Origin: Bacteroidota bacterium
GTDB lineage: Bacteria > Bacteroidota > Bacteroidia > Palsa-948
Assembly (NCBI GenBank): GCA_016195025.1
Contig: JACQAL010000036.1
Span: 83,411-147,410 of the forward strand
Direction of reading: 5' to 3'
Length of the DNA stretch: 64,000 nt
The notes beneath the pieces were generated by a model. It did not search any database, was not told the DNA's origin, and saw only the letters and a program-made list of their open reading frames with translations. Shown in pieces: positions 3,643 to 53,979 of the stretch. Position 1 is the first letter of the stretch, and each line of letters begins with the position of its first letter. The position numbers and the translations under genes were made by a program.

Positions 3643-4086
3643 ATGAAAACATTTATGTTATCCGTTATTTTTTTTCTTCAAACATTTAATTTCTGTTATT
3701 CACAACTAATGGGGGGAGGAATACTGCCTTTATTTTCAGTATCAACAAAAGCAGATAATATTTTAGAAGCAACAATGTTCTCTGTCCCCAGTACTACAAT
3801 TAGTGTTATAAATGGTATAAATATATACCATCGCAAACCCGCAAGTGATAATGCCCCTTTTGGAATTATTCTTGGTGCTTTTCAGATATATGCAACCGCA
3901 CAATTCTCATCCAATTCTACTGTGAGAACTATAAATTATGTTTCAGGGTCATGTCTTATTCTAACAAGTGTTTTAAGGATGTATGATTTTGAAAAAGATT
4001 CTAAAACAGCATTTAATTTTAATATTATGCCAATGAATAACGGATCACTTTTAGTCGGATTTAATTTTTCTCATCAATTTAATTAA
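3643..4086 (+). CDS. Hypothetical exported protein
   Basis: 147 residues, not recognised. It begins with a clear Sec signal peptide (hydrophobic stretch to FCYSQL, cleavage near residue 20) and then a hydrophobic, glycine-poor sequence with possible beta-strands or short membrane segments. An in-frame TAATTTTG word resembling the -7 promoter box lies about 30 bases before the ATG. It converges with the repeat lipoprotein gene; their stop codons overlap by four bases. Probably an envelope protein, with no further basis for a role. Confidence 0.55.
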   Translation: MKTFMLSVIFFLQTFNFCYSQLMGGGILPLFSVSTKADNILEATMFSVPSTTISVINGINIYHRKPASDNAPFGIILGAFQIYATAQFSSNSTVRTINYVSGSCLILTSVLRMYDFEKDSKTAFNFNIMPMNNGSLLVGFNFSHQFN

Positions 4087-5330
4087 TGCTGTGGAATTCC
4101 CAATCCCAATTCTTTTTTCTTTTTTTGTTTTTTCATTTCTCTTTTCATTTCGCGTGTTGTGCTGAAACTTGCACTTTCTTTCACACTTTGCTTTTCCATT
4201 TGCCGCTCTTCTCTTGATTTGAAATGGAAACGGAAGAGATGAAATATTTTTTTCTTTTTGCCGGTTCCCACATTTTTATTTTTATTCTTTCCTTTCCGCA
4301 AATTGGAAGGAGAATTTTTATTTAATTCAGTTTTCGAAGCGAATGCGTCTGTTCCTTTAGTATTGTCCTCCAGTTTTCTTTTTCTGAATTTAATTTTTCT
4401 TCCGCTGGCTTTTTCCCCGTAATCCATTGAATGATTATTGTTCGCAGTAAAATTTCCTGCGCTCACATCGCCTCCTTTGATTTTATTTCTTCTGAACTTC
4501 ACTCTTTTGCCTGAAGATTTCTCTCCGTAGTCCTTTGAAGATTTATTTGTGGCGAATGCATCACCCAATGAACTTTCTTTTTCAGATTTACGTTTAAAGC
4601 GAACTCGTTTGCCGGAAGATTTTTTTCCGTAATCCTTTGAAGATTTGTTGGTGGCAAACGCGTCACCAAGCGCACTTCCTTTTTCAGATTTACGTTTGAA
4701 GCGAACTCGTTTGCCGGAAGATTTTTCTCCATAATCCTTTGAAGATTTGTTGGTGGCGAACGCGTCACCAAGCGCACTTCCTTTTTCTGATTTACGTTTG
4801 AAGCGAACTCGTTTGCCGGAAGATTTTTCTCCGTAATCCTTTGAAGATTTGTTGGTGGCGAACGCATCACCGAGTGAACTTCCCTTTTCAGATTTTCTTT
4901 TGAAGCGAACTCGCTTACCGGAAGATTTTTCTCCATAGTCCTTTGAAGATTTGTTGGTGGCGAATGCATCACCAACCGAAGTTCCTTTTGCTTTATCTCT
5001 TCTGAAAATTTTTATTCTCTTTCCATTTGCTTTTTCGCCATAGTTTTTAGTTTGCTTGCTTGCAGTGAAACCATCTCCGGTTTTATTTTTTGATTTTCTG
5101 CGCGATGATTTGAAACTGTCATTTTGTTTCGGAGATTTGGCTTTTGATTTTTTCGAGAGAAAAGATTCTTTCGGCTCTTTTGTTTTTTGTTTTTTATCGC
5201 GCTTGCCGAAGAAATGCCGCTCGGGAAATGTTTTCTGCTTTTCTCCTGAATCTTTGGAAGGCATGTTGCTTGCTGTTTTGCATGCGCTCAGAAGAATTAA
5301 AAAGATGGCGGAAGAGTAAAAAAACTTCAT
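4083..5330 (-). CDS. Lipoprotein made of tandem 34-residue basic repeats
   Basis: 415-residue predicted lipoprotein, not recognised. The signal ends in a lipobox, LLSACK, with the lipidated Cys near residue 17. After a Lys/Ser-rich linker come seven repeats of about 34 residues, with consensus GDAFATNKSSKDYGEKSSG followed by KRVRFKRKSEKGSSL; the middle four are nearly identical, the outer ones degenerate, and an eighth is partial. The C-terminal tail is again Lys/Arg-rich. The whole protein is strongly basic and has no evident enzymatic domain. It could bind a polyanion such as nucleic acid, LPS or acidic polysaccharide at the envelope; that is inference. It belongs in style with the small basic lipoprotein near 28.7 kb. 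Confidence 0.75.
   Translation of the reverse strand: MKFFYSSAIFLILLSACKTASNMPSKDSGEKQKTFPERHFFGKRDKKQKTKEPKESFLSKKSKAKSPKQNDSFKSSRRKSKNKTGDGFTASKQTKNYGEKANGKRIKIFRRDKAKGTSVGDAFATNKSSKDYGEKSSGKRVRFKRKSEKGSSLGDAFATNKSSKDYGEKSSGKRVRFKRKSEKGSALGDAFATNKSSKDYGEKSSGKRVRFKRKSEKGSALGDAFATNKSSKDYGKKSSGKRVRFKRKSEKESSLGDAFATNKSSKDYGEKSSGKRVKFRRNKIKGGDVSAGNFTANNNHSMDYGEKASGRKIKFRKRKLEDNTKGTDAFASKTELNKNSPSNLRKGKNKNKNVGTGKKKKIFHLFRFHFKSREERQMEKQSVKESASFSTTREMKREMKKQKKKKELGLGIPQH
4338..5078 (-). repeat. 102-bp tandem repeat array coding the 34-residue units
   Basis: About seven head-to-tail copies of a 102-base unit inside the lipoprotein gene. Central copies differ at only a few bases; several shared words (such as GAAGATTTGTTGGTGGCGAA) recur at exactly 102-base spacing. 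The near-identity of the middle copies suggests recent duplication or gene conversion, so the copy number may vary between strains and may be miscounted in short-read assemblies. Confidence 0.9.
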
Positions 5331-18349: not shown

Positions 18350-20041
18350 TTATCTCAGAATTTTCCGTACGAAAGCAACTGTGAAATACGACATCATCAC
18401 TACACCCATCCAACCTTCTATGGGAGCCAGCCAGTGAATAACGCCAACCGGAAGGCAATCTCCATAGCCAATGGTAAGAAAAGTAATGGCGCTGTAATAA
18501 AATGATTGGAGAAAATAAGAGAGCGATGCGTTATCGGCTCCGCTGCAGGAAATCCCCGCATACATAATTTGCGGAAGAACGCAATACAATGTGCTGAAGC
18601 CAACATAAACGAAAATCATACTTACGAGAACGCGCACAGGGTCGGTTGCGTAGCGCCCCATTTTATCGAACACAAGCCATTTGAAAAAATAAATCGGGTA
18701 TGCCCATGCAGCGTTCATTTTATTTTTTTTCACTTCCGCCTGCAGCAGCGATTTTTGTTCGCAGCGCATGTATTCCACGTACGATTTATCTTCATCGAGG
18801 TATTGCCCCACCGCATGAAATTCTTCTTTCAGAATACGGAACTGTTCCCCTTTCTGCAGAAGGGAAGTGTCGGTTTGATTATAAATGGTGCGCTTTACAT
18901 GATTTTTTTTCCAGTCAATATTAATTCGTCCGAGATTTTTTATTCCTGAAAAATTAAACTGCTGAATGGGAGTGGAATCATCCCCTGGAATTAAATCAAC
19001 GATGTCGCGCAAAACAGAATCGTGAAGGTTAAGCGAAGCACATTGGTTAAACCGAAAATCGAAATGCGAATTCATCCGGCAGGACTGAAGATTTATGCCA
19101 GCCGATTTGGCTCTGTAAAAATTTACTTTGTCGGCATAAAAATCACAGTTCTCAAAGGAGATTTCATTCGAACCGAAATCGGCTTCCTCAAAACTGATGT
19201 CGCCTTTTCCAAAAACAGATGAACGAAAACTTGTTTTGGAATTATTGAACTCCGCTCCTTCAAATGAAACATCGCCATCGCCCCACTGCACGCGCTTGAA
19301 ATCCACGCGGTCACCCAGGAATTCCACCGCTTTGAAATCAATTTTGCCCGCACCGAAAACAGATTTCTCGAAGGATACATTGCCGGAAAATTTCGCATAG
19401 CGGAAATCGGAAACACCTTCGCCCCATGTGACGGATTGAAAATCGGCATCGCCCCCGAATTTTGTGTTTACAAAAAGCACATCGCCCGCGCCAAAATGTG
19501 TGAAGCGAAACCCGGAATTGCCCGCTCCAAACTCCGCGAAACGAAAATCCACTGTTCCTTCTCCGAAGCGCGAGCGCCTGAAACTCACCGCGCCTTCTCC
19601 GAGTTTCGCATGGCTGAAATTAATAGTACCGTTTCCGAAAACAGATTCTTCGAAAAATATTTTTGAGTTTTCAAAAACAGCGTGCGAGAAATCCACTTCC
19701 ACATCGCAGTCGAAGAAAGAATTTTTTGCAGAAAAAATTTTCAGGTGCACAGGATGCATTTCGGAAAGCGCCCGCTGTTTGCGGAATTCTCCCAGGGAAA
19801 AATTCTGCACATAACATTCGTTCAGATTAACCGGCTGTCCGTTCTCCATTTTTTCATACAACTCTCCGGCAGAAACAAAGCCGAATTCTTTTGTTTCTTT
19901 TTTTCTTCCTTTGGCATCAAAAAAATCTATCTGCGCGGTTTTGGAAAATTCTGTTCCGCTTGAAGAAATAAATTTTTTTTCAAGAAGTGTTACCTTGAAA
20001 TCATTCAGTTCCGGCTCGGGCTTGTGGAGAAGGATTTCCAT
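18350..20041 (-). CDS. Potassium channel with an N-terminal 12-residue (pentapeptide-like) repeat domain
   Basis: 563 residues. Residues 1-110 are an unassigned cytoplasmic lead. Residues 115-315 hold about 16 copies of a 12-residue unit, consensus xxxFxxxxFGxG (for example AVSFRRSRFGEG, TVDFRFAEFGAG, DISFEEADFGSN), likely a right-handed beta-helix related to pentapeptide repeats. After a linker the C-terminus is a two-helix pore: helix near 466-488, pore loop with the potassium filter TIGYGD near 523, and a last helix to the end (FTVAFVRKILR); an extra helix may precede (AYPIYFFKWLVF). Likely an inner-membrane potassium channel gated or scaffolded by the repeat domain. It ends just beside the E1 gene, converging with it. 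Confidence 0.8.
   Translation of the reverse strand: MEILLHKPEPELNDFKVTLLEKKFISSSGTEFSKTAQIDFFDAKGRKKETKEFGFVSAGELYEKMENGQPVNLNECYVQNFSLGEFRKQRALSEMHPVHLKIFSAKNSFFDCDVEVDFSHAVFENSKIFFEESVFGNGTINFSHAKLGEGAVSFRRSRFGEGTVDFRFAEFGAGNSGFRFTHFGAGDVLFVNTKFGGDADFQSVTWGEGVSDFRYAKFSGNVSFEKSVFGAGKIDFKAVEFLGDRVDFKRVQWGDGDVSFEGAEFNNSKTSFRSSVFGKGDISFEEADFGSNEISFENCDFYADKVNFYRAKSAGINLQSCRMNSHFDFRFNQCASLNLHDSVLRDIVDLIPGDDSTPIQQFNFSGIKNLGRINIDWKKNHVKRTIYNQTDTSLLQKGEQFRILKEEFHAVGQYLDEDKSYVEYMRCEQKSLLQAEVKKNKMNAAWAYPIYFFKWLVFDKMGRYATDPVRVLVSMIFVYVGFSTLYCVLPQIMYAGISCSGADNASLSYFLQSFYYSAITFLTIGYGDCLPVGVIHWLAPIEGWMGVVMMSYFTVAFVRKILR
19097..19699 (-). repeat. 36-bp periodic coding region for 12-residue repeats
   Basis: The coding sequence repeats with a period of 36 bases (a few units 33), each unit carrying a Phe, a second Phe or Trp five residues on, and GxG. 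Units are diverged at the DNA level, so this is an old repeat kept by selection on the protein, not a recent expansion. Confidence 0.75.
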
Positions 20042-20104: not shown

Positions 20105-21085
20105 TTACTGCCCTGTTTTCGGAGCGGTGGGCGGAGGAGTGGATTTGAAACGCAAACCAATCATCAACTCGTGCGTGCCGTTGCTGTATTTTTTCAGAGC
20201 AGTAGTGGTAATGTCATACGAATAGCCGAAAGAAAGATTTTCTTTATACATATAACCCACCATCATGCTCATGGCATCTTTTGTGCGGTAGGTGCCACCT
20301 ACCCAGATTTTATTTTTATAAAAGAAGCGCGCGCCCAAATCAATTTGCACGGGAGCGGGGCTTACAAACTTTACAAGGAAAGATGGCTCGGCAGAAAATT
20401 CATCGGTGAGAAATAATTTATAGCCGCCCATGATATAAAAATGCGTAGCCAGCGTTCCGGTGGGAGTTGGCGTTTCAAATAATTTGAGTTTCGCCTGGAA
20501 GAGTTGCGGCACATAACCGCCCAGCCACCAGTTGCCGGTGCCGTTATCTTTCGGCAAACCGTATAAATAAAATGATGCGCCCAAATCGGGAACCACTTTG
20601 GATAAATATCCGTTTGCAAATACATAATCATTCGGATTATCGAGCGTAAGTTTGGTTGCATCGGTTGCCCACTGAAGCACTCCTGCAGAAAGAGAAAGAG
20701 AAATTTTTATTTTCTCGGTAAGTTTAATGTGATAAGAATACGAGCCGCTTGCTCCGATTCTTCGGGTGGGACCTGCAATATCGGTAAACAGGTAACCGCC
20801 CACACCCATGTTTTTTGCTTTGATGGGACCGTTCGCGCTCAGTGCATACGTGCGCGGGGCATCGGTGATTCCCAGCCATTGCAAACGGTTTGCCGACACC
20901 ACATCAAAGTACGGGCGGCTTCCTGCTATGGCAGGGTTTTCAAAATAATCATTGAACATGTATTGAGTAAAAAGAGGCAACTGCTGGGCAGAACAAGGCA
21001 AAAGGAAAAAGGTAAAAGTCAAAAGTAAAATACCGGCAAAGGGTGCTACCTTTTGAATTGTGAATTGTGAATTGTGAATTTTCAT
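20105..21085 (-). CDS. PorP/SprF family type IX secretion system membrane protein
   Basis: 326 residues. Outer-membrane protein of the PorP/SprF family, whose members partner with type IX secretion and with particular large surface adhesins. Signature N-terminus of the mature part: QQLPLFTQYMFNDYFENPAI, then NRLQWLGITDAPRTYALSANG, and repeated barrel strands to GTHELMIGLRF. It starts one base after the SprB-like adhesin on the same strand, the classic adhesin-SprF arrangement. The first 25 residues are odd: HNSQFTIQ and LLTFTFFLLP are both encoded by heptamer arrays, so the signal peptide is largely repeat-derived. A gain or loss of one heptamer would shift frame. Confidence 0.9.
   Translation of the reverse strand: MKIHNSQFTIQKVAPFAGILLLTFTFFLLPCSAQQLPLFTQYMFNDYFENPAIAGSRPYFDVVSANRLQWLGITDAPRTYALSANGPIKAKNMGVGGYLFTDIAGPTRRIGASGSYSYHIKLTEKIKISLSLSAGVLQWATDATKLTLDNPNDYVFANGYLSKVVPDLGASFYLYGLPKDNGTGNWWLGGYVPQLFQAKLKLFETPTPTGTLATHFYIMGGYKLFLTDEFSAEPSFLVKFVSPAPVQIDLGARFFYKNKIWVGGTYRTKDAMSMMVGYMYKENLSFGYSYDITTTALKKYSNGTHELMIGLRFKSTPPPTAPKTGQ
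21007..21082. repeat. Two heptamer arrays in the signal-peptide region of the PorP/SprF gene
   Basis: The array next to the ATG is GAATTGT three times then GAATTTT; the second, 21 bases on, is AAAAGGT, AAAAGTC, AAAAGTA, AAATACC. On the coding strand they read AATTCAC-type and TTTTGAC/TTTTACC-type heptamers. Confidence 0.7.
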
Positions 21086-21086
21086 T

Positions 21087-24000
21087 TTATCTGAGTATTG
21101 TTATCGGTCCGGTTACAGGGTCAGGATATAAATCGCTGTTCAGATTAATCACATAATAATACGTTCCCACAGGCAAATCTTTACCATTGTATTTTGCATC
21201 CCACGGAATTTTATATCCCACGGAACTGAACAGCAATTCTCCCCAGCGGTTATAAACTTCCACCACCGCTTCGGGGAATTGCTCAATGCCGGGAATTATC
21301 CACACATCATTTATTCCATCACCGTTCGGAGACAAACCATCATTCGGCACAACGCTTAATACAACATTCACTCTTACCGTATCAGTAGAAGTGCAGCCGT
21401 TCGCATCCGTAACCGTCAGCGTGTAGGTTGTGCTGGTTGTTGGATTTGCGGTGGGATTAATGCACGTGGTGCAACTCAATCCGGAAGAAGGAGACCATGA
21501 ATAAGTTCCGGTTCCGGTTCCGTTCAGTACAGCGCTTTGCGAAGTGAGGATGGTAACATCGGTTCCCGCATCAATCACCGGCAGAGCGAATACGGTAACG
21601 CTCACCGTATCGGTATCACTGCAAATTCCGTTGGAAGCAATAAGCCCGAAATCATTTATTCCCACCGGAGGAGAAACCGCAATGCAGGTATCGCTTTTAA
21701 TAATTGTCCATGCAGGAAGTTGATACCATGAATAATTAGCAGTGTTCAAACTGCTGCTGCAAAGCATGGCATTTCCGCCAAAGCAGAACGCAGTATCATT
21801 TCCGGCAAGTGCAACCGGCATGGCAAGAACAGTTACGCAAACAGTGTCGGAATCAACACACATTCCTCCGTTCGTGCCGATGATTCCATAGCAGGTTGTT
21901 CCGGTGGAAGGAGAAACAGTATAGCAGATTCCTGTGGAAACAGGAGTCCATGCGGGAAGCGTGAACCATTGATAAGTTGTTGCCCCCGATGCGCAGAGAG
22001 AAACCGAATCGCCCTGGCAAATAGTGGTGTCATTCGTTGAAAGAAGAAGCGGAACAGGAATCACGGTTACATTTACTGTATCCGTATCGGCACAAATCCC
22101 GTTCATGGCAATGAGCGCAAAATTATTTACACTGGCAGGAGGAGAAACGTTCACGCAGTTGGTAGTTCCTACTAAAGTCCATGCAGGAAGTTGATACCAT
22201 GCTTGACTTGTTGCATTCACGCTTCCGCTACAAAGAGAAATGGAATCGCCTTCGCATATTGTTACATCAATTCCTGCGGCAGCAGTTACTGTTGTTGTAA
22301 CTCCAATGTTCATCGTATCGGTGATAGAGCAGTTGTTGGCATCGGTAATAATTACAGAATCCAATCCTGCACAAAGCCCCGTGCACGAAGCGGAAGTGCA
22401 TCCCGCAGGGAACCATTGATATGTATAGGGCGGAGTCCCTCCGGCAGGAGTAATAGTAATGATTCCATCGCAGGTGTTCGGGCAACTGGCGTTGGTGACT
22501 GTATGCGTTGAAGCCAAAACAGGAGGGTCGGTGAGAGTTACTGTAGAAGTTGAAGAACATAAATTCGTATCGGTAAGCGTGAGCGTATAAGTTCCCGCGC
22601 ATAAGCCGGTGCAGGCAGAGACAGTGCAGCCGGTTGACCATACATAAGTATAAGGCGGAGTTCCTCCGGTAGGAGAAGAAGAAATAGTTCCATTGCACGA
22701 GCCGTTGCAAAGAGGATTTGTTCCTGTTACGTTAGCAGCGAGCGGTGCGGGTTGCGTAATAATTGCTGAATCATTTTTAAAACATCCCAGCGCATCGGTT
22801 ACTGTTACCGTGCAGATTCCGGCACATAATCCGGTTACTGCACTGGTGGTTTGCGCATTGCACCAAAGATATGTATAAGGCGAAGTTCCACCGCTGATAG
22901 TTACCATAGCGGTTCCGTTGCACGATGCATTGCACGAATCATTGGTGGATGTTACCGAAGAAGTCAAAACTGCATTTTGTCCTACGGTAAATGTTTCAAT
23001 CAGCGTGCAGTTGTTCGCATCCCGAAGCGTGTCAGTATAATTTCCTGCACAAAGCGCGGTAATGGAAGAGGTAGTTGCGGAGTTACTCCATGAATAAGTA
23101 TAAGGAGGAGTTCCTCCTGAAGGATTCAATGTAATGCTTCCGTTGCACACTCCAAAGCAAGTGGCACTTGTAATGGAAGAATTGGAAGCAAGCGGTGCAG
23201 GTTCAGTAATATTAACAGAAGAAATTGTCTGGCATCCGTTCGTATCGGTTACGGTAGCAAAATATTGATTCGGGCAAAGCCCCGTGCAGGTTTGTGTAGT
23301 GCATCCACCGGGGAACCAGGAATAACCCCACGGAGGTCCATCACCGGTTGCGCACGAAACTATAACCGTTCCATCGCAGGCGCCATTGCACGAAATATTT
23401 GTTCCTGTAACACAAATGGTGGGCCCTGATGTGTTGTTCAGAGGAATGGTGTCAATGCTGATGCATCCGTTGGCATCCATTACCGTGTCAATATAAACTC
23501 CTGCGCAAAGCCCGGTAATGGTTGCAGTGGTTGCGCCAGTGCTCCAGAAAAATGAATAAGGAGGTGTTCCTCCCGATGCAATCACAGAAATGCTTCCGTT
23601 GCAAACATTACACGTTGCGGGAGCCACTCCGTTTGACTGCGTGAGAATAGGGGGAGCGGTAACGCCTACCGCCTGCGTAATGGAACATCCGTTGGCATCC
23701 GATAAAGTGAGCGAATAAGTTCCTGCGCATAATCCGGTGGCGGTGGAAGTTGTTTGCGCATTCGACCATAAGAAAGTATAGGGCGATATTCCTCCTATGG
23801 GAGTTGAAGTCGCGGTTCCGTCACACGAACCCGAACACAAAGGAGCAGTTGTTGTAATATTCGGCTGAAGAAGAGCGGGAGATGAAATAGTAAGAAAACT
23901 GTCAATGCTGCATCCGTTGGCATCACTAATGTTAAGCGTATAGGAACCTACACATAATCCTGTCACAGAAGAAGTAGTTAATGCGGTGGGATTCCAGAGA

Positions 24001-27000
24001 TAGGTATAGGGAGCCGTTCCTCCGCTCACAGTTGCCGAAGCAGTACCGTCACATCCTGCGGAGCAACTTGCATTGGTGAATGTAACCGTTGCCGATAAAA
24101 GAGCGGGCTCTGTTATTGCCACGCTTTGAGAAGAAGCACAGCCATCTGCATCGGTAACAGTTACCACATAATTTCCAGGGCATAAGCCAGTGCAGGCAGA
24201 AGTACTGCAGCCGCTGTTCCAACTATATGTATAAGGAGTTGTTCCTCCGGAAGCATTTATGGTAGCAGTTCCATCACAATTTCCATTGCAGGAAACATTC
24301 GTGGAAGAAATAGTGGTGGTGAGAACCGCGGGTTCAGTGATAGATACCGTTGCGGTGGCGGTGCAGCCATTCCCATCTGTTACAGTAACTGTATAAACTC
24401 CCGGACATAAACCCACTATCGGAGCAATAGGAGCGCCCGTGCTCCATAAATAACTATATAACGGAGTTCCTCCGCTTGCGCTTGCGGTTGCAGTTCCATC
24501 ACAGTTTCCATTACAAGTAACATTCGTAGAAGAAATAGTTACAGTCAAAACAGATGGTTCAGTAACAGGAATGAAAGTAGAATCGCTGCAACCTTTCGAA
24601 TCGGCAAGCACAACGGTGTCGATTCCTGCTGTCAATCCCGAAACGCACGAAGTAGTGGAACCAATCGGCAGCCAGATATAAGTATACGGTGCAGTTCCGC
24701 CCGAAGGAGAAAGGCAAATGTTTCCGTTATTTCCTCCGTTGCACGAAACATTCGTGATGGTAGGATTCGCAGCCAATGCCGGAGGATTATTCAATGTATC
24801 ATACGCAAATGAAACGCAGGAAATATTATCAGTAACTGTTACAATGTAATTTCCCGCGCATAATCCCGAGCACGCAGAAGCAGTGCAGCCGCTCGGAGCC
24901 CACGAGTAGGTGAACGGAGGATTGGTACCGGCAACACTCACGGAAGCACTTCCATCACAACTGCCGTTGCAGGTTGGGTCAACGGAAGAAGTTACTGTAA
25001 CTGTTGGTCCGCTTATGTTTCCAACGGCAATGGCGAAAGTATCTTTACATCCAGCCGCATCTGAAATCATTACCGTATCAATTCCCGCAGCCAATCCGGT
25101 AATGCAGGCAGTGGTGGCTCCTCCGGGAGACCAAACATACGTATACGCAGGAGTTCCTCCGGAAGGAGAAATACATATTGCTCCATCGCTCGCTCCGCAA
25201 GTTGCAAGTGTGACAGAAGGATTATCGCTGATGTTGGGAATGTTTCCAATGGAAACTGTGTTCGTGAGTGTGCAGTTGTTGGTATCGGCAACAGTTACCG
25301 TATAATTTCCCGCGCATAATCCGGTGGCAGTTGCAGTTGTTTGAGCCGGAAATCCCGGAGACCATGTATAAGTATAACCGCCTGTTCCGCCTGAAGGAGA
25401 AGCAGTAGCGGTTCCATTACAGATTCCGCACGATGCAGTGGTGCTGCTCATTGTAATAGTAAGTGCAGGAGGATTTGTAAAAGTTACTGTGTTGGTTGCA
25501 ATGCAGCCATTCGAATCAGAAACATTCACAGTATAATTTCCTGCGCAAAGCCCGGTGGCTGATTGTGTAGTTTGAACCGGAATTGTTGGAGACCATGCAT
25601 ACGTGTAAGGCGAACCTCCGCCAAACGGAGTTGCGGTTGCAATTCCATCGCAGGCGCCAAAGCAACTCACGCTGTTTCCTGAAACAGTAACCGAAAGCGT
25701 GACAACAGGTTTTATTATAGCAGGAAGTGTATTCTTACAACCATTGGCATCCGTCACAGTCACCGTACAGGTTCCGGGGCATAATCCAACTGCGGTGGAA
25801 GTGGTTTGTCCGTTGCACCATAAAAATGTATAAGGCATCGTTCCGCCCGATGTAGAAACAGTCGCAGTTCCGTTGCATAAAGTACAACTGGATGTGGTGG
25901 AAGAAATGGAAGAAGAAAGAATAAGCGGCTGAGTAATGGTAATGATTCCAATATCGGAACATCCTTTCGAATCTGTAACCGTAACGCTAAAAGTTCCGGC
26001 ACATAAACCGGTGGCGGTGCTGGTGGTTTGTCCGCCCGTCCATAAATAAGTATACGGAGCGGTTCCGCCTGTCGGGCTTGAAGTGGCTGAACCGTTGCAC
26101 TGCCCCGAACAAAGAACATTATTTACCACCGAAGCATTTGCCGCAAGAGCCGGAGGGTCGGTAAGTGTTATAGTTTGTGTGTTAGTGCAGCCCTTACTAT
26201 CTGTAACAATCAACGTATAAGTTCCCGCGCATTGACCGGCAATGCTGGAAGTAGTTTGCCCGCCCGGATTCCAATTAAAAGTATATGCGGGAGTGCCTCC
26301 GCCCACCACTGCTGAAATGGAGCCACTGCAATCACCGTTGCATTTAGGATTAGAAGAAGTAATGGTAACTGTCAGGGTAGTTGGCTGCAGAAATGTAACC
26401 GAAGCGGAAGCCATACATCCGTTTGCGTCTGTGACCTGCAATGTATACACCCCGGCACACAGCCCGGTGATGGATGGAGTGGTTGCAGTTGTTGACCATA
26501 AATAAGTATAGGGCGCAGTTCCTCCGCTTACAGATGACACTGCGGTTCCGTTGCAATCGCCATTGCAGTTTAACGGATTAGGCGTAGCGGAAGAAATGGA
26601 AGCAGTAAATGCGCTGGGTTGAGTAACGGCAATAGTTGCAGATGCAGGGCATCCGTTTGCATCGGTTAGTGTGAGCGTATAAGTCCCTGCGCATAAGCCC
26701 GAGCAGGAAGAAGAAGTGCATCCGCCCGGCATCCATGAATATGTATAAGGAGATGTTCCTCCCGTTGGAGAAGAAGAAACACTTCCATTGCATTGACCAA
26801 AACATAAAACGCCCGTGCTCGAAAGATTCGGTACAAGTGCAGCAGGAGAATTAACCGTTATGGAAGAAGCGGCAGTGCATCCTTTCGAATCAGTAACCGT
26901 TATCGAATACGTTCCGGCACATAATCCCGTACAAGTTGAAGCAGTGCATCCGTTCGACCATGAATATGTATAGGCAGGAGTTCCACCCGATGCAGTAGCC

Positions 27001-28445
27001 GTAACGCTTCCATTGCAGAGACCATTGCACGTTACATCAGTTTCAGTGGGAGTAACTGTGAGTTGTGTGGGTTGTGTAATGGTAATCGTTCCTGTTTTTG
27101 TGCAGCCGTTGTTATCCGTAACTGTTACGGTGTAACTTCCCGCGCAAAGCCCGGTGCAGGAAGATGCTGTGCATCCGCTCGTCCATGAATAAGTATAAGG
27201 CGCTATTCCACCCGAAGCATTTGCATTCGCTGTTCCGGTGCATAACCCAAAGCAGTTAACATTTGTTCCGGTTGGTGAAACAGAAAGTGCCGTTGGTTGA
27301 GTAATCGCTACGGTTGCAGTTTTTGTACAGCCGTTTGCATCGGTTAACGTTAACGTATAATTATTGGCGCATAACCCGGTGCAGGCAGAAGTAGTGCATC
27401 CTCCGGGCGACCAGGAATACGTGTAGGGAGGCACTCCTCCTGATACAGTTGCCGTTACAGAACCCGTGCATACTGCGTTGCACAAAAGATTTGTTCCGCT
27501 TACTGTTATGGTAAGTGCAGGCGGTTGAGTGATGGCAGCAACATAAGAGGTAACACACGTATGGCTGTCGGTAATGGTGCAGGTATAATTTCCCGCACAA
27601 AGATTAGAAATGGCAGAAGTAGTTGAGCCGCCCGGCATCCATGAATAAGTATAAGGCGAAGTTCCTCCGGAAGGATTCACAGAAGCGGTGCCGTTGCATT
27701 GACCAAAACAAGTAATAGGAGTGGAAGAGCCATTCGGATTCAAAGGAAAAGGTTGCGTTAGCGTAACTGTTTTCACTTTTGTGCATAGGTTTGCATCCGT
27801 TACTGTTACCGAATAAGTTCCGTTGCATAATCCTGTTGCTTGGGCAGTTGTCTGGGCAAAAGGGTCACTCCATAAATAGGTATAAGGCGGAGTTCCTCCA
27901 GTAGGGCTTGCTGTAGCAGAACCATCACAGAAACTAAAGCAGGAAGGATTTTGTGCAGGAGGATTTATGCTAACAAATAATGCCTGCGGTTCACAAAGGT
28001 CAATAGAGATGATGCAGGAACTTATTCCGGTGTTGTCCCAAACTTCCACACTTTTGGTTCCAGCACAAAATCCTGTTGCAGTGGGAGTGGTTTGATTAGA
28101 AGGTGTCCACTGATATGTATAAGGAAGAACACCTCCGCTTACAGAAACAGTTGCCGTTCCGCTGCAATCGCCATTGCATTTTAGATTAGTTCCTGTGATA
28201 ATAAGCGTTAAAGTATTAACGCCAATGGTGCAGATAAGTGTATCGGGAGTTGCAGTGGGTGGACAAGATACGCTTGAGATAGTAGGAAGAGAAGCAAAAT
28301 GTTTTGCCGTATCGCTCGCTGCTGCGGACGGCCAATGAAAATTACTGGCGGAACTAACAGAAACAATGCAGGAAAAAAGGATGTAAAAAAATATTCTCAA
28401 ACTAATATAGGTTTTGTAAATATGACTATTACGATAATAAAACAA
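21087..28445 (-). CDS. Giant SprB-repeat surface adhesin with T9SS type B sorting domain
   Basis: 2452-residue secreted surface protein. A hydrophobic N-terminal segment (RIFFYILFSCIVSVSSA) serves as signal peptide. From about residue 84 there are 26 tandem SprB-type repeats of about 76 residues, each with CNGxCxGTA, SGGTxPYTYxW, a TGLCAGTY segment and VTVTDxNGC. Three Ig-like Cys-containing domains (ICEGDSISLC type), one PKD-like domain (YSWSPSSGLSC), and a C-terminal gliding-motility domain (LSPNGDGINDVW, VEVYNRWGELLF, LPVGTYYYVI) follow. The last is the type B T9SS export signal. It precedes PorP/SprF by one base. Start: the frame opens with TTG; a second TTG 15 codons in gives a neater signal peptide. 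Probably a cell-surface adhesin or gliding adhesin. Confidence 0.93.
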   Translation of the reverse strand: MFYYRNSHIYKTYISLRIFFYILFSCIVSVSSASNFHWPSAAASDTAKHFASLPTISSVSCPPTATPDTLICTIGVNTLTLIITGTNLKCNGDCSGTATVSVSGGVLPYTYQWTPSNQTTPTATGFCAGTKSVEVWDNTGISSCIISIDLCEPQALFVSINPPAQNPSCFSFCDGSATASPTGGTPPYTYLWSDPFAQTTAQATGLCNGTYSVTVTDANLCTKVKTVTLTQPFPLNPNGSSTPITCFGQCNGTASVNPSGGTSPYTYSWMPGGSTTSAISNLCAGNYTCTITDSHTCVTSYVAAITQPPALTITVSGTNLLCNAVCTGSVTATVSGGVPPYTYSWSPGGCTTSACTGLCANNYTLTLTDANGCTKTATVAITQPTALSVSPTGTNVNCFGLCTGTANANASGGIAPYTYSWTSGCTASSCTGLCAGSYTVTVTDNNGCTKTGTITITQPTQLTVTPTETDVTCNGLCNGSVTATASGGTPAYTYSWSNGCTASTCTGLCAGTYSITVTDSKGCTAASSITVNSPAALVPNLSSTGVLCFGQCNGSVSSSPTGGTSPYTYSWMPGGCTSSSCSGLCAGTYTLTLTDANGCPASATIAVTQPSAFTASISSATPNPLNCNGDCNGTAVSSVSGGTAPYTYLWSTTATTPSITGLCAGVYTLQVTDANGCMASASVTFLQPTTLTVTITSSNPKCNGDCSGSISAVVGGGTPAYTFNWNPGGQTTSSIAGQCAGTYTLIVTDSKGCTNTQTITLTDPPALAANASVVNNVLCSGQCNGSATSSPTGGTAPYTYLWTGGQTTSTATGLCAGTFSVTVTDSKGCSDIGIITITQPLILSSSISSTTSSCTLCNGTATVSTSGGTMPYTFLWCNGQTTSTAVGLCPGTCTVTVTDANGCKNTLPAIIKPVVTLSVTVSGNSVSCFGACDGIATATPFGGGSPYTYAWSPTIPVQTTQSATGLCAGNYTVNVSDSNGCIATNTVTFTNPPALTITMSSTTASCGICNGTATASPSGGTGGYTYTWSPGFPAQTTATATGLCAGNYTVTVADTNNCTLTNTVSIGNIPNISDNPSVTLATCGASDGAICISPSGGTPAYTYVWSPGGATTACITGLAAGIDTVMISDAAGCKDTFAIAVGNISGPTVTVTSSVDPTCNGSCDGSASVSVAGTNPPFTYSWAPSGCTASACSGLCAGNYIVTVTDNISCVSFAYDTLNNPPALAANPTITNVSCNGGNNGNICLSPSGGTAPYTYIWLPIGSTTSCVSGLTAGIDTVVLADSKGCSDSTFIPVTEPSVLTVTISSTNVTCNGNCDGTATASASGGTPLYSYLWSTGAPIAPIVGLCPGVYTVTVTDGNGCTATATVSITEPAVLTTTISSTNVSCNGNCDGTATINASGGTTPYTYSWNSGCSTSACTGLCPGNYVVTVTDADGCASSQSVAITEPALLSATVTFTNASCSAGCDGTASATVSGGTAPYTYLWNPTALTTSSVTGLCVGSYTLNISDANGCSIDSFLTISSPALLQPNITTTAPLCSGSCDGTATSTPIGGISPYTFLWSNAQTTSTATGLCAGTYSLTLSDANGCSITQAVGVTAPPILTQSNGVAPATCNVCNGSISVIASGGTPPYSFFWSTGATTATITGLCAGVYIDTVMDANGCISIDTIPLNNTSGPTICVTGTNISCNGACDGTVIVSCATGDGPPWGYSWFPGGCTTQTCTGLCPNQYFATVTDTNGCQTISSVNITEPAPLASNSSITSATCFGVCNGSITLNPSGGTPPYTYSWSNSATTSSITALCAGNYTDTLRDANNCTLIETFTVGQNAVLTSSVTSTNDSCNASCNGTAMVTISGGTSPYTYLWCNAQTTSAVTGLCAGICTVTVTDALGCFKNDSAIITQPAPLAANVTGTNPLCNGSCNGTISSSPTGGTPPYTYVWSTGCTVSACTGLCAGTYTLTLTDTNLCSSTSTVTLTDPPVLASTHTVTNASCPNTCDGIITITPAGGTPPYTYQWFPAGCTSASCTGLCAGLDSVIITDANNCSITDTMNIGVTTTVTAAAGIDVTICEGDSISLCSGSVNATSQAWYQLPAWTLVGTTNCVNVSPPASVNNFALIAMNGICADTDTVNVTVIPVPLLLSTNDTTICQGDSVSLCASGATTYQWFTLPAWTPVSTGICYTVSPSTGTTCYGIIGTNGGMCVDSDTVCVTVLAMPVALAGNDTAFCFGGNAMLCSSSLNTANYSWYQLPAWTIIKSDTCIAVSPPVGINDFGLIASNGICSDTDTVSVTVFALPVIDAGTDVTILTSQSAVLNGTGTGTYSWSPSSGLSCTTCINPTANPTTSTTYTLTVTDANGCTSTDTVRVNVVLSVVPNDGLSPNGDGINDVWIIPGIEQFPEAVVEVYNRWGELLFSSVGYKIPWDAKYNGKDLPVGTYYYVINLNSDLYPDPVTGPITILR
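22279..28196 (-). repeat. 26 tandem SprB-type repeats (about 228 bp each)
   Basis: Counted from the recurrent PYTY.W and TDxNGC segments of the translation. Units are moderately diverged. Two (units 14 and 16) have lost the GLC cysteine and share the variant ITGLAAGIDTV/VSGLTAGIDTV, implying duplication of a two-unit block. Confidence 0.85.
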
Positions 28446-51426: not shown

Positions 51427-53979
51427 GTGAAAAATATTCGCCTGCTGTTTTTATTTTCCATTTTTCACTTTTCAAATTTTATTTCTCATTCACAAGATTT
51501 TATCGGCTACTCCAACAGCAATTATGCGGGAGTTTCCGGAATTGATTTAAATCCTGCTTCCATTGCCGACAGCCGCTATAAATTTGATATGGCGCTGGCC
51601 GGATTTAGTTTTAATGTTTCAAATAATTATATCGGCTTGAGAAAAGAAGCCATAAAAAATAAATCAACTGCATTCAATGACCCAAACTTTCAAAAAGATT
51701 ATTTGGTGGAAAGAATAAATTCCGACCGCAAGTCGGCTTTCATCCACCAGCAACTTATTCTTCCCTCGTTCATGCTCACGCTTTCTCCCAAGCATGCCAT
51801 TGGTGTGAGCATTCGTGAGCGCACGTATGTTAACATTGATGGTTTTGAACCCGAACTTGCCAGCCAGTTATATCATTCGCTCGAAGACAGTTCTCTCTGG
51901 CAACACCATCTTACCAACAAGCAAGTGAGCATTCAGGCGATGACGTGGCTGGAATACGGAGCCACGTATGCGCGCGTGCTGCGCGATGAAGGAAATAAAT
52001 TTTTGAAAGCCGGAGTGCGAATAAAATTTCTACAGGGATTTTGGGCTTCCTATGTTTTCATAAATAATTTTGATTATAACTTTGGAAGTGATTCCACGCT
52101 TTCTGTTTACAACACAAGTGTAAATTATGGACATTCCAATTCTTTTTCGCTTGAAAAAAATATGCTCAAGTACCAGTTTGCTTCCAAACCGTCATTTGGT
52201 TTTGATTTGGGCGCGGTGTATGAATGGAGACCCGACCGTGAAAAATATTTTTATGACATGGACGGGGAAACGCATTTAGATGCGCGCTATGCAAATAAAT
52301 ATAAACTCCGCGCAGGACTTTCTGTTCTTGACATTGGAAACATTCGTTTTGAAAAAGCCACACTGGGAGATTTTTATGCCGATATAAATGACTGGCAGAT
52401 TAATCATTTGAAAATGGATACTTCGAAAGGCCCGATGGCAAATGTAGACAGCATCATCAAATCAAAATTTCAGCAGACGGAAGGGCTCGGAACTTTCAAA
52501 ATGAACCTTCCCACTGCCATCAGCACACAGGTGGATTACAACATCTGGAAAAATTACTATGCAAACTTCACGGCTTATTATGCGTTTCAGTTTACAAAGA
52601 ATAAAAACAAAGTTCATGAACTCACCACCTTCAGCATTACACCGCGCTGGGATTGGAAATGGTTTGGAGTTTTTATTCCGGTTTCTTACAACACCTACAG
52701 GAATCTGAATCTTGGATTGGATTTGCGGCTCGGTCCGCTCATCATTGGAACGCATAATCTTGCTCCGCTTATAGGTAATCAGAATATTTATGGTGCCGAA
52801 GTTCATTTTATTCTGAAACTTTTCTTCTGGCGGTTTCATCAGCCGAAAGATAGAGATGGCGACCACATATCGAATAAAAAAGATAAATGCCCCGATGTTC
52901 CCGGTACGTGGGAATTTTCCGGTTGCCCCGACCGCGATGGCGACCACATTCCCGATAATCTCGATGATTGTCCTGATGTTCCCGGCTTGCCGAAATTCAA
53001 CGGATGCCCCGATAGAGATGGAGATGGAATTATTGACAAACTTGATTCTTGTCCCGATGAACCGGGCGTTGCCGAACTGCACGGCTGTCCCGACCGCGAT
53101 AAAGATGGCATCATCGACAAAAAAGATTCTTGTCCCGATGAAGCAGGACTTGCGGAATTTCATGGCTGTCCCGACCGCGACCACGATAGGGTGATAGACA
53201 AATATGATTTATGCCCCGATGATTCGGGAAGCGTTGAGACATTCGGCTGCCCCGACCGCGATGGAGACGGAGTGATTGACAAAGAAGACCGCTGCCCCGA
53301 CAAACCCGGTCCGAAAGAAAATGACGGATGCCCGCTGGCAAAACTTCATTTGCTCGATAAGAATGGAAATATTATTGCATCGGCTACCATTGACAAGGAT
53401 GGAAAATTCCACTTCACGGAACTTCCTTCGGATGAAAACTCGCTGCTGCAACTTGAATCGTACGATGTATTAATTGTGAATGAAGTTTCGGTGGCTACCG
53501 GAAAAATTGTTCGCGTGGCGCGCAGAGGAGCCGATGGATATTTCCATTTCGAAAAACTGGAGACCGATGAAAACAAACTTGGAAAGATGGATATTCCCGA
53601 TACGCAGATTCAACTCAAGAAAGAAGAAGCGGAAAAAGTTAAGAAAGCAATGGAAACGCTGGAGTTTGATTTCGGTTCGGAAAAAATACGCGAGTCCTCC
53701 CTTGACGGATTGGATTTGGTAGCCGAGTTGCTGCAGCAAAATCCTGCGTGGCGATTGAAACTTTCCGGCCACACCGATAATGTTTCTTCCATGCAGTATA
53801 ACATGAAACTTTCTCAGAAGCGCGTGGAGTCCATTAGAAACTATTTGACAAAGAAAAAAGGAATTCCATCCGGTAGAATTGTTTTAAAATGGTATGGACC
53901 CACAAAACCCATTGCGCCAAACGATACCGAAGAAGGCAAACAGAAAAACCGCAGGGTGGAATTTCTGATTATCAAGTAA
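51427..53979 (+). CDS. OmpA-family outer membrane protein with DUF5723 barrel and TSP3 repeats
   Basis: 850 residues. Signal peptide to about HSQDF (residue 23), partly encoded by a heptamer array. Residues 25-470 form a DUF5723-type beta-barrel (NYAGVSGIDLNPASIADSRY). Residues 475-635 hold six thrombospondin type 3 calcium repeats (DRDGDHIPDNLDDCPDVPG type, about 27 residues each, ending GCP). A short beta region follows, then a C-terminal OmpA peptidoglycan-binding domain (LEFDFGSEKI, LSGHTDNVSSMQYNMKLSQK, NRRVEFLIIK). It would tie the outer membrane to the wall. Start GTG. Confidence 0.88.
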   Translation: MKNIRLLFLFSIFHFSNFISHSQDFIGYSNSNYAGVSGIDLNPASIADSRYKFDMALAGFSFNVSNNYIGLRKEAIKNKSTAFNDPNFQKDYLVERINSDRKSAFIHQQLILPSFMLTLSPKHAIGVSIRERTYVNIDGFEPELASQLYHSLEDSSLWQHHLTNKQVSIQAMTWLEYGATYARVLRDEGNKFLKAGVRIKFLQGFWASYVFINNFDYNFGSDSTLSVYNTSVNYGHSNSFSLEKNMLKYQFASKPSFGFDLGAVYEWRPDREKYFYDMDGETHLDARYANKYKLRAGLSVLDIGNIRFEKATLGDFYADINDWQINHLKMDTSKGPMANVDSIIKSKFQQTEGLGTFKMNLPTAISTQVDYNIWKNYYANFTAYYAFQFTKNKNKVHELTTFSITPRWDWKWFGVFIPVSYNTYRNLNLGLDLRLGPLIIGTHNLAPLIGNQNIYGAEVHFILKLFFWRFHQPKDRDGDHISNKKDKCPDVPGTWEFSGCPDRDGDHIPDNLDDCPDVPGLPKFNGCPDRDGDGIIDKLDSCPDEPGVAELHGCPDRDKDGIIDKKDSCPDEAGLAEFHGCPDRDHDRVIDKYDLCPDDSGSVETFGCPDRDGDGVIDKEDRCPDKPGPKENDGCPLAKLHLLDKNGNIIASATIDKDGKFHFTELPSDENSLLQLESYDVLIVNEVSVATGKIVRVARRGADGYFHFEKLETDENKLGKMDIPDTQIQLKKEEAEKVKKAMETLEFDFGSEKIRESSLDGLDLVAELLQQNPAWRLKLSGHTDNVSSMQYNMKLSQKRVESIRNYLTKKKGIPSGRIVLKWYGPTKPIAPNDTEEGKQKNRRVEFLIIK
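51454..51481. repeat. Heptamer array in the OmpA-family signal peptide
   Basis: TTTTCCA, TTTTTCA, CTTTTCA, AATTTTA: A/T-rich heptamers encoding FSIFHFSNF of the signal peptide. Less exact than other arrays. Confidence 0.4.

Follow-up and report, generated by a model that had tools for sequence, protein, structure and literature searches.

Results

The channel gene and its parts

The 64,000-nucleotide stretch of DNA analysed here (the window) carries, on its minus strand, an open reading frame for a 563-residue protein. Open-reading-frame analysis, Pfam searches, and hydropathy analysis confirm the central claim of a preliminary description of the locus: that is, that a two-helix pore with the sequence TIGYGD follows a solenoid made of 12-residue repeats. 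The gene and its parts are:

18350-20041, minus strand: whole gene, pentapeptide-repeat-type solenoid plus K+ channel pore, 563 aa (open reading frame, Pfam PF13576 and PF07885, full-length relatives)
19757-20041, minus strand: N-terminal domain, residues 1-95, small, beta-rich, and poorly conserved (AlphaFold2, hydropathy, mean conservation 0.44)
19067-19744, minus strand: predicted beta-solenoid, residues ~100-325, ~18-19 units of 12 residues (periodicity, AlphaFold2, Foldseek, constant length in relatives)
18866-19066, minus strand: C-terminal cap region of the solenoid, residues 326-392 (repeat ends in sequence; mean conservation 0.60)
18638-18865, minus strand: helical linker and conserved interfacial segment, residues 393-468 (mean conservation 0.67-0.74; predicted helices)
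18353-18640, minus strand: two-helix pore, residues 468-563 (Ion_trans_2; KirBac, Kir13, and Shaker pore matches; hydropathy; TxG[YF]G in aligned relatives)

The pore comprises M1 (residues 468-492), a pore helix and filter (residues 512-530), and M2 (residues 531-558), followed by a C-terminal FVRKILR. Hydropathy analysis reveals no hydrophobic signal sequence or other hydrophobic stretch at the N-terminus of the protein. AlphaFold2 models the N-terminal domain with pLDDT ~74-91 from residue 11 onward and predicts linker helices at residues 394-411 and 417-439 with low confidence; pLDDT is ~30-60 for the linker and pore, and residues beyond 343 are poorly modelled.

By open-reading-frame reading, the neighbours of the gene in the window are a dehydrogenase E1-like gene and a PorP-like gene. 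The latter, a PorP/SprF-like gene (20105-21085, minus strand), lies beside a gene (21087-28445, minus strand) whose 2452-aa repetitive product has a gliding-type segment at its C-terminus, and, judged by its sequence, the pair at 20105-28445 resembles type IX secretion-linked SprB pairs. The window also contains a 102-base tandem repeat at 4501-4989 (4.8 copies, 89% matches), within a minus-strand open reading frame at 4083-5330, and an 81-base repeat at 52968-53222, within an 850-aa plus-strand open reading frame, the units of which read like calcium-binding DxDxD repeats.

The pore matches K+ channels

The C-terminal part of the protein matches Ion_trans_2 (PF07885) over residues 480-561 (E = 3.3e-8; 33.7 bits vs. 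a cut-off of 22.5) and, with its TxG[YF]G filter, qualifies as a channel pore of this family. Among solved structures, the pore has its relatives in K+ channels, for example Kir13 (4.5e-6), KirBac3.1 (1.3e-4), and Shaker (3.3e-4). The same genome encodes one copy of the channel and one separate Ion_trans_2 protein, in a 335-aa open frame.

The solenoid has a 12-residue unit and a predicted 24-residue coil

Comparison of residues 101-345 with themselves at a lag of 12 residues yields 60 identities, vs. a mean of 18.6 for shuffled sequences (z ~10; none of 20,000 shuffles above 37), and self-identity at a lag of 24 residues is also high. Aromatic residues (F/W) are spaced 5, 7, 5, 7 across most of the array, with GxG at one turn. 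The lag-12 signal bears out the 12-residue period of the preliminary description; its estimate of about 16 repeats proves too low, since ~18-19 units span residues ~100-325.

The AlphaFold2 model of the solenoid, built from four sequences, is a high-confidence prediction (mean pLDDT 94.8, pTM 0.90), and its secondary-structure strings show a strand every ~6 residues in a pattern that recurs every ~24. In this model, one coil is thus predicted to contain four strands in about 24 residues, corresponding to two 12-residue units. The textbook pentapeptide helix, or Rfr fold, has four five-residue repeats (20 residues) per coil (PMC8145042); the modelled solenoid has four strands per coil but ~24 residues, in line with the earlier suggestion that it differs from a helix with five-residue rungs. 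We set aside a coil of 12 residues, the form known from small antifreeze beta-helices, since the alternation in strand length has a period of 24 and each unit contains two core Phe residues. We also set aside the knotted solenoid fold (PMC13123833), which is triangular and has fewer Phe residues.

It had further been suggested that the solenoid may represent a distinct family; the results indicate otherwise. Pfam Pentapeptide_3 (PF13576) matches six stretches of the protein with 55.1 bits, above the gathering cut-off of 27, which places the solenoid in that family. A tblastn search of plasmids returned 66 records, nearly all from Streptomyces, in which the matches listed are annotated as pentapeptide repeat-containing protein; one of them, a Streptomyces protein, has the same 12-residue unit and the same 5/7 Phe spacing, with a far stronger lag-12 signal. 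Because Pfam PF13576 recognises the solenoid and because the Streptomyces protein shares the 5/7 Phe spacing, we assign the 12-residue unit to a known sub-type. With the solenoid model alone, Foldseek places pentapeptide-repeat proteins on top (EfsQnr, 1.6e-4; AlbG; MfpA; then QnrB1), but with low TM-scores vs. these solved proteins, 0.2-0.35. With the full-length model, Foldseek yields no match at E <= 0.001 in the PDB or the viral library, because the pore part is poorly modelled. Taken as modelled, the solenoid would be a wide-coil variant of the known pentapeptide fold: the same kind of fold with another coil length. A solenoid profile at 1e-6 finds no other carriers among 396 genomes of the phylum, so this sample yields no further C-terminal partners of the solenoid; such partners exist in Streptomyces.

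Solenoid length, linker, and filter are conserved among relatives

The channel is present in 26 of the 395 sampled genomes of the class (its own included, one copy truncated), from about ten families. At the level of the order it occurs, in single copy, in five of seven genomes, and full-length relatives occur also in the same genus. Public genome contigs supply three records with full-length relatives, all of them Bacteroidetes MAGs. This full-length conservation rules out a chance open reading frame at 18350-20041.

We aligned 22 proteins, 20 of them distinct, with relatives 38-67% identical to the query. All 20 distinct proteins have a solenoid of 226-228 residues, and all 20 have a filter of the form T[IV]G[YF]G[DE]. 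Beside the filter, the best-conserved parts are the linker, the interfacial segment, and M2; conserved residues of the linker and interfacial segment are K397, Q400, L404, K405, G412, Y414, D416-E417-D418, and Y448-P449. The architecture is a direct observation, and so are the conserved filter, the conserved linker, and the constant length of the solenoid. With a length this constant at 38-67% identity, the solenoid differs from repeat arrays whose copy number drifts.

In one relative (L012, in G035:C19), just the last 62 channel residues are still in frame; they share 81% identity with the query pore, and no solenoid can be recognised upstream of them. This may be a decayed copy, a rearrangement, or an assembly error.

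The genomic surroundings are not shared beyond close relatives

The neighbours of the channel gene are common only to a few close relatives, and no conserved partner gene was found beyond these. The neighbours of relatives that were tested are of housekeeping types (for example threonyl-tRNA synthetase, asparaginase, and aminotransferase), and none of the eight tested against Pfam is a nucleotidyltransferase. Searches of phages and viral contigs returned no relatives of the channel, and a linker-pore query returned none from plasmids; a mobile or phage origin is, accordingly, unsupported.

Discussion

A proposed role for the solenoid, and the alternatives

Pentapeptide-repeat domains are abundant, and their function is mostly not known. 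Two-transmembrane-helix (2TM) K+ channels have both termini in the cytosol; by analogy, and in keeping with the N-terminal hydropathy, the N-terminus of this protein is probably cytosolic. We infer that the protein forms a tetramer, that its pore selects K+, that its solenoid lies on the cytosolic side, and that the solenoid gates the pore. Our favoured reading, which we consider probable, is that the protein is a 2TM K+ channel in which a cytosolic crown of fixed-length, wide-coil solenoid couples a sensed signal to the gate. According to this proposal, the pore would mediate assembly of four subunits, the four solenoids would stand as a crown in the cytosol, the crown would sense a ligand, a nucleic acid, or a partner protein, and the signal would reach the M1/M2 gate by way of the helical linker and the interfacial segment, both of which are conserved. 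The role in gating or localisation that was suggested at the outset is plausible, and a solenoid whose length stays fixed across 20 distinct proteins is consistent with it.

The main rival is that the solenoid is a tether: that is, a localisation or scaffolding module that binds a cytosolic complex or the nucleoid, with a pore that is not gated by the solenoid. The gene neighbours include no conserved partner that would hint at a signal, and the solenoid might only be such a tether; many pentapeptide-repeat domains, moreover, act as protein-binding surfaces (review, PMC8145042), and neither a ligand pocket nor a partner is evident here. The constant length of 226-228 residues and the conserved connection between solenoid and M1, however, suggest, without proving, mechanical coupling, and we consider a tether possible but distinctly less likely than crown gating of the pore. 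Doubtful, and somewhat less likely still, is that the protein is a bacterial K+ channel gated by a ligand or a nucleic acid, with four fixed-length solenoids of 24-residue coils arranged in a ring as the crown that controls the gate; if so, the crown would be a type of gating module that has yet to be described among K+ channels of general physiology.

A role in defence would liken the protein to Hailong HalA, reportedly an anti-phage channel effector that has a crown-like domain and an ion channel on one chain: the crown-bearing channel would be kept shut by a nucleic-acid signal and would open on phage infection. The overall plan is shared with HalA as so described, and a distant Bacteroidota protein, L021, matches the HalA model (NCBIfam NF051894) weakly, in its pentapeptide-like region only. 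The query itself, however, matches neither NF051894 (cut-off 250 bits; no match at E <= 0.1) nor PADLOC, and NF051894 finds no HalA in the same genome at 1e-10 and none above cut-off in the 395 class genomes. No HalB nucleotidyltransferase is adjacent to the channel gene in the window or among the tested neighbours of relatives, and the single-copy presence in most genomes of the order, with no relatives in phages, viral contigs, or plasmids, further argues against defence, which we regard as improbable. That the channel is a non-conducting remnant or an artefactual assembly fusion is the least probable: the 62-residue relative in G035 speaks for it, but the other relatives are intact and full-length, with intact filters, which contradicts this explanation for the family.

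A fixed-length pentapeptide domain fused to a K+ pore could make current or flux a direct read-out of what the domain senses, and the predicted 24-residue coil would be a form of the pentapeptide fold for which this analysis found no close solved structure.

Comparison with known systems

In its pore, the protein is like KirBac3.1, KcsA, and eukaryotic Kir13, with pore helix, TxGYG filter, and M2. It differs from them in having no C-terminal cytosolic Kir domain (the chain stops just past M2) and in having its presumed cytosolic mass N-terminal to the pore instead. In its solenoid, the protein is like EfsQnr (2w7z), MfpA (2bm4), QnrB1 (2xtw), and AlbG (2xt2), the best Foldseek matches, in its predicted four-sided stacked coil; these are free soluble proteins with 20 residues per coil, vs. 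~24. The Streptomyces plasmid pentapeptide-repeat protein WP_329583145.1 has the 12-residue unit with GxG-like turns and matches PF13576 above cut-off; unlike the channel, it has no channel match, and its hydrophobic part precedes the repeats.

The pairing of a pentapeptide-type solenoid with a channel is conserved and little described, and our literature search, which covered few subscription papers, turned up no publication on a K+ channel with pentapeptide repeats. In four other Bacteroidota proteins (L021, with both regions above cut-off, and L023, L044, and L050, with weaker matches), a pentapeptide-like region is followed by a linker and then an Ion_trans_2 pore. L021 lacks the 12-residue period and, as a query, finds no relatives in plasmids. 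L021, L039, L044, and L050 share a pentapeptide-like N-terminus, a YGT linker motif, an M1-like helix, ~110 residues, and a TLG[YF]G pore segment; the ~110 residues that separate the M1-like helix from the pore in L021, L044, and L050 set them apart from the query, and the channel layout of all four is seemingly different. Given that pentapeptide-like regions and Ion_trans_2 pores are also combined in other proteins of Bacteroidota, we regard fusions of a solenoid to a channel as a class, and the query as a distinct member of it with a 12-residue period.
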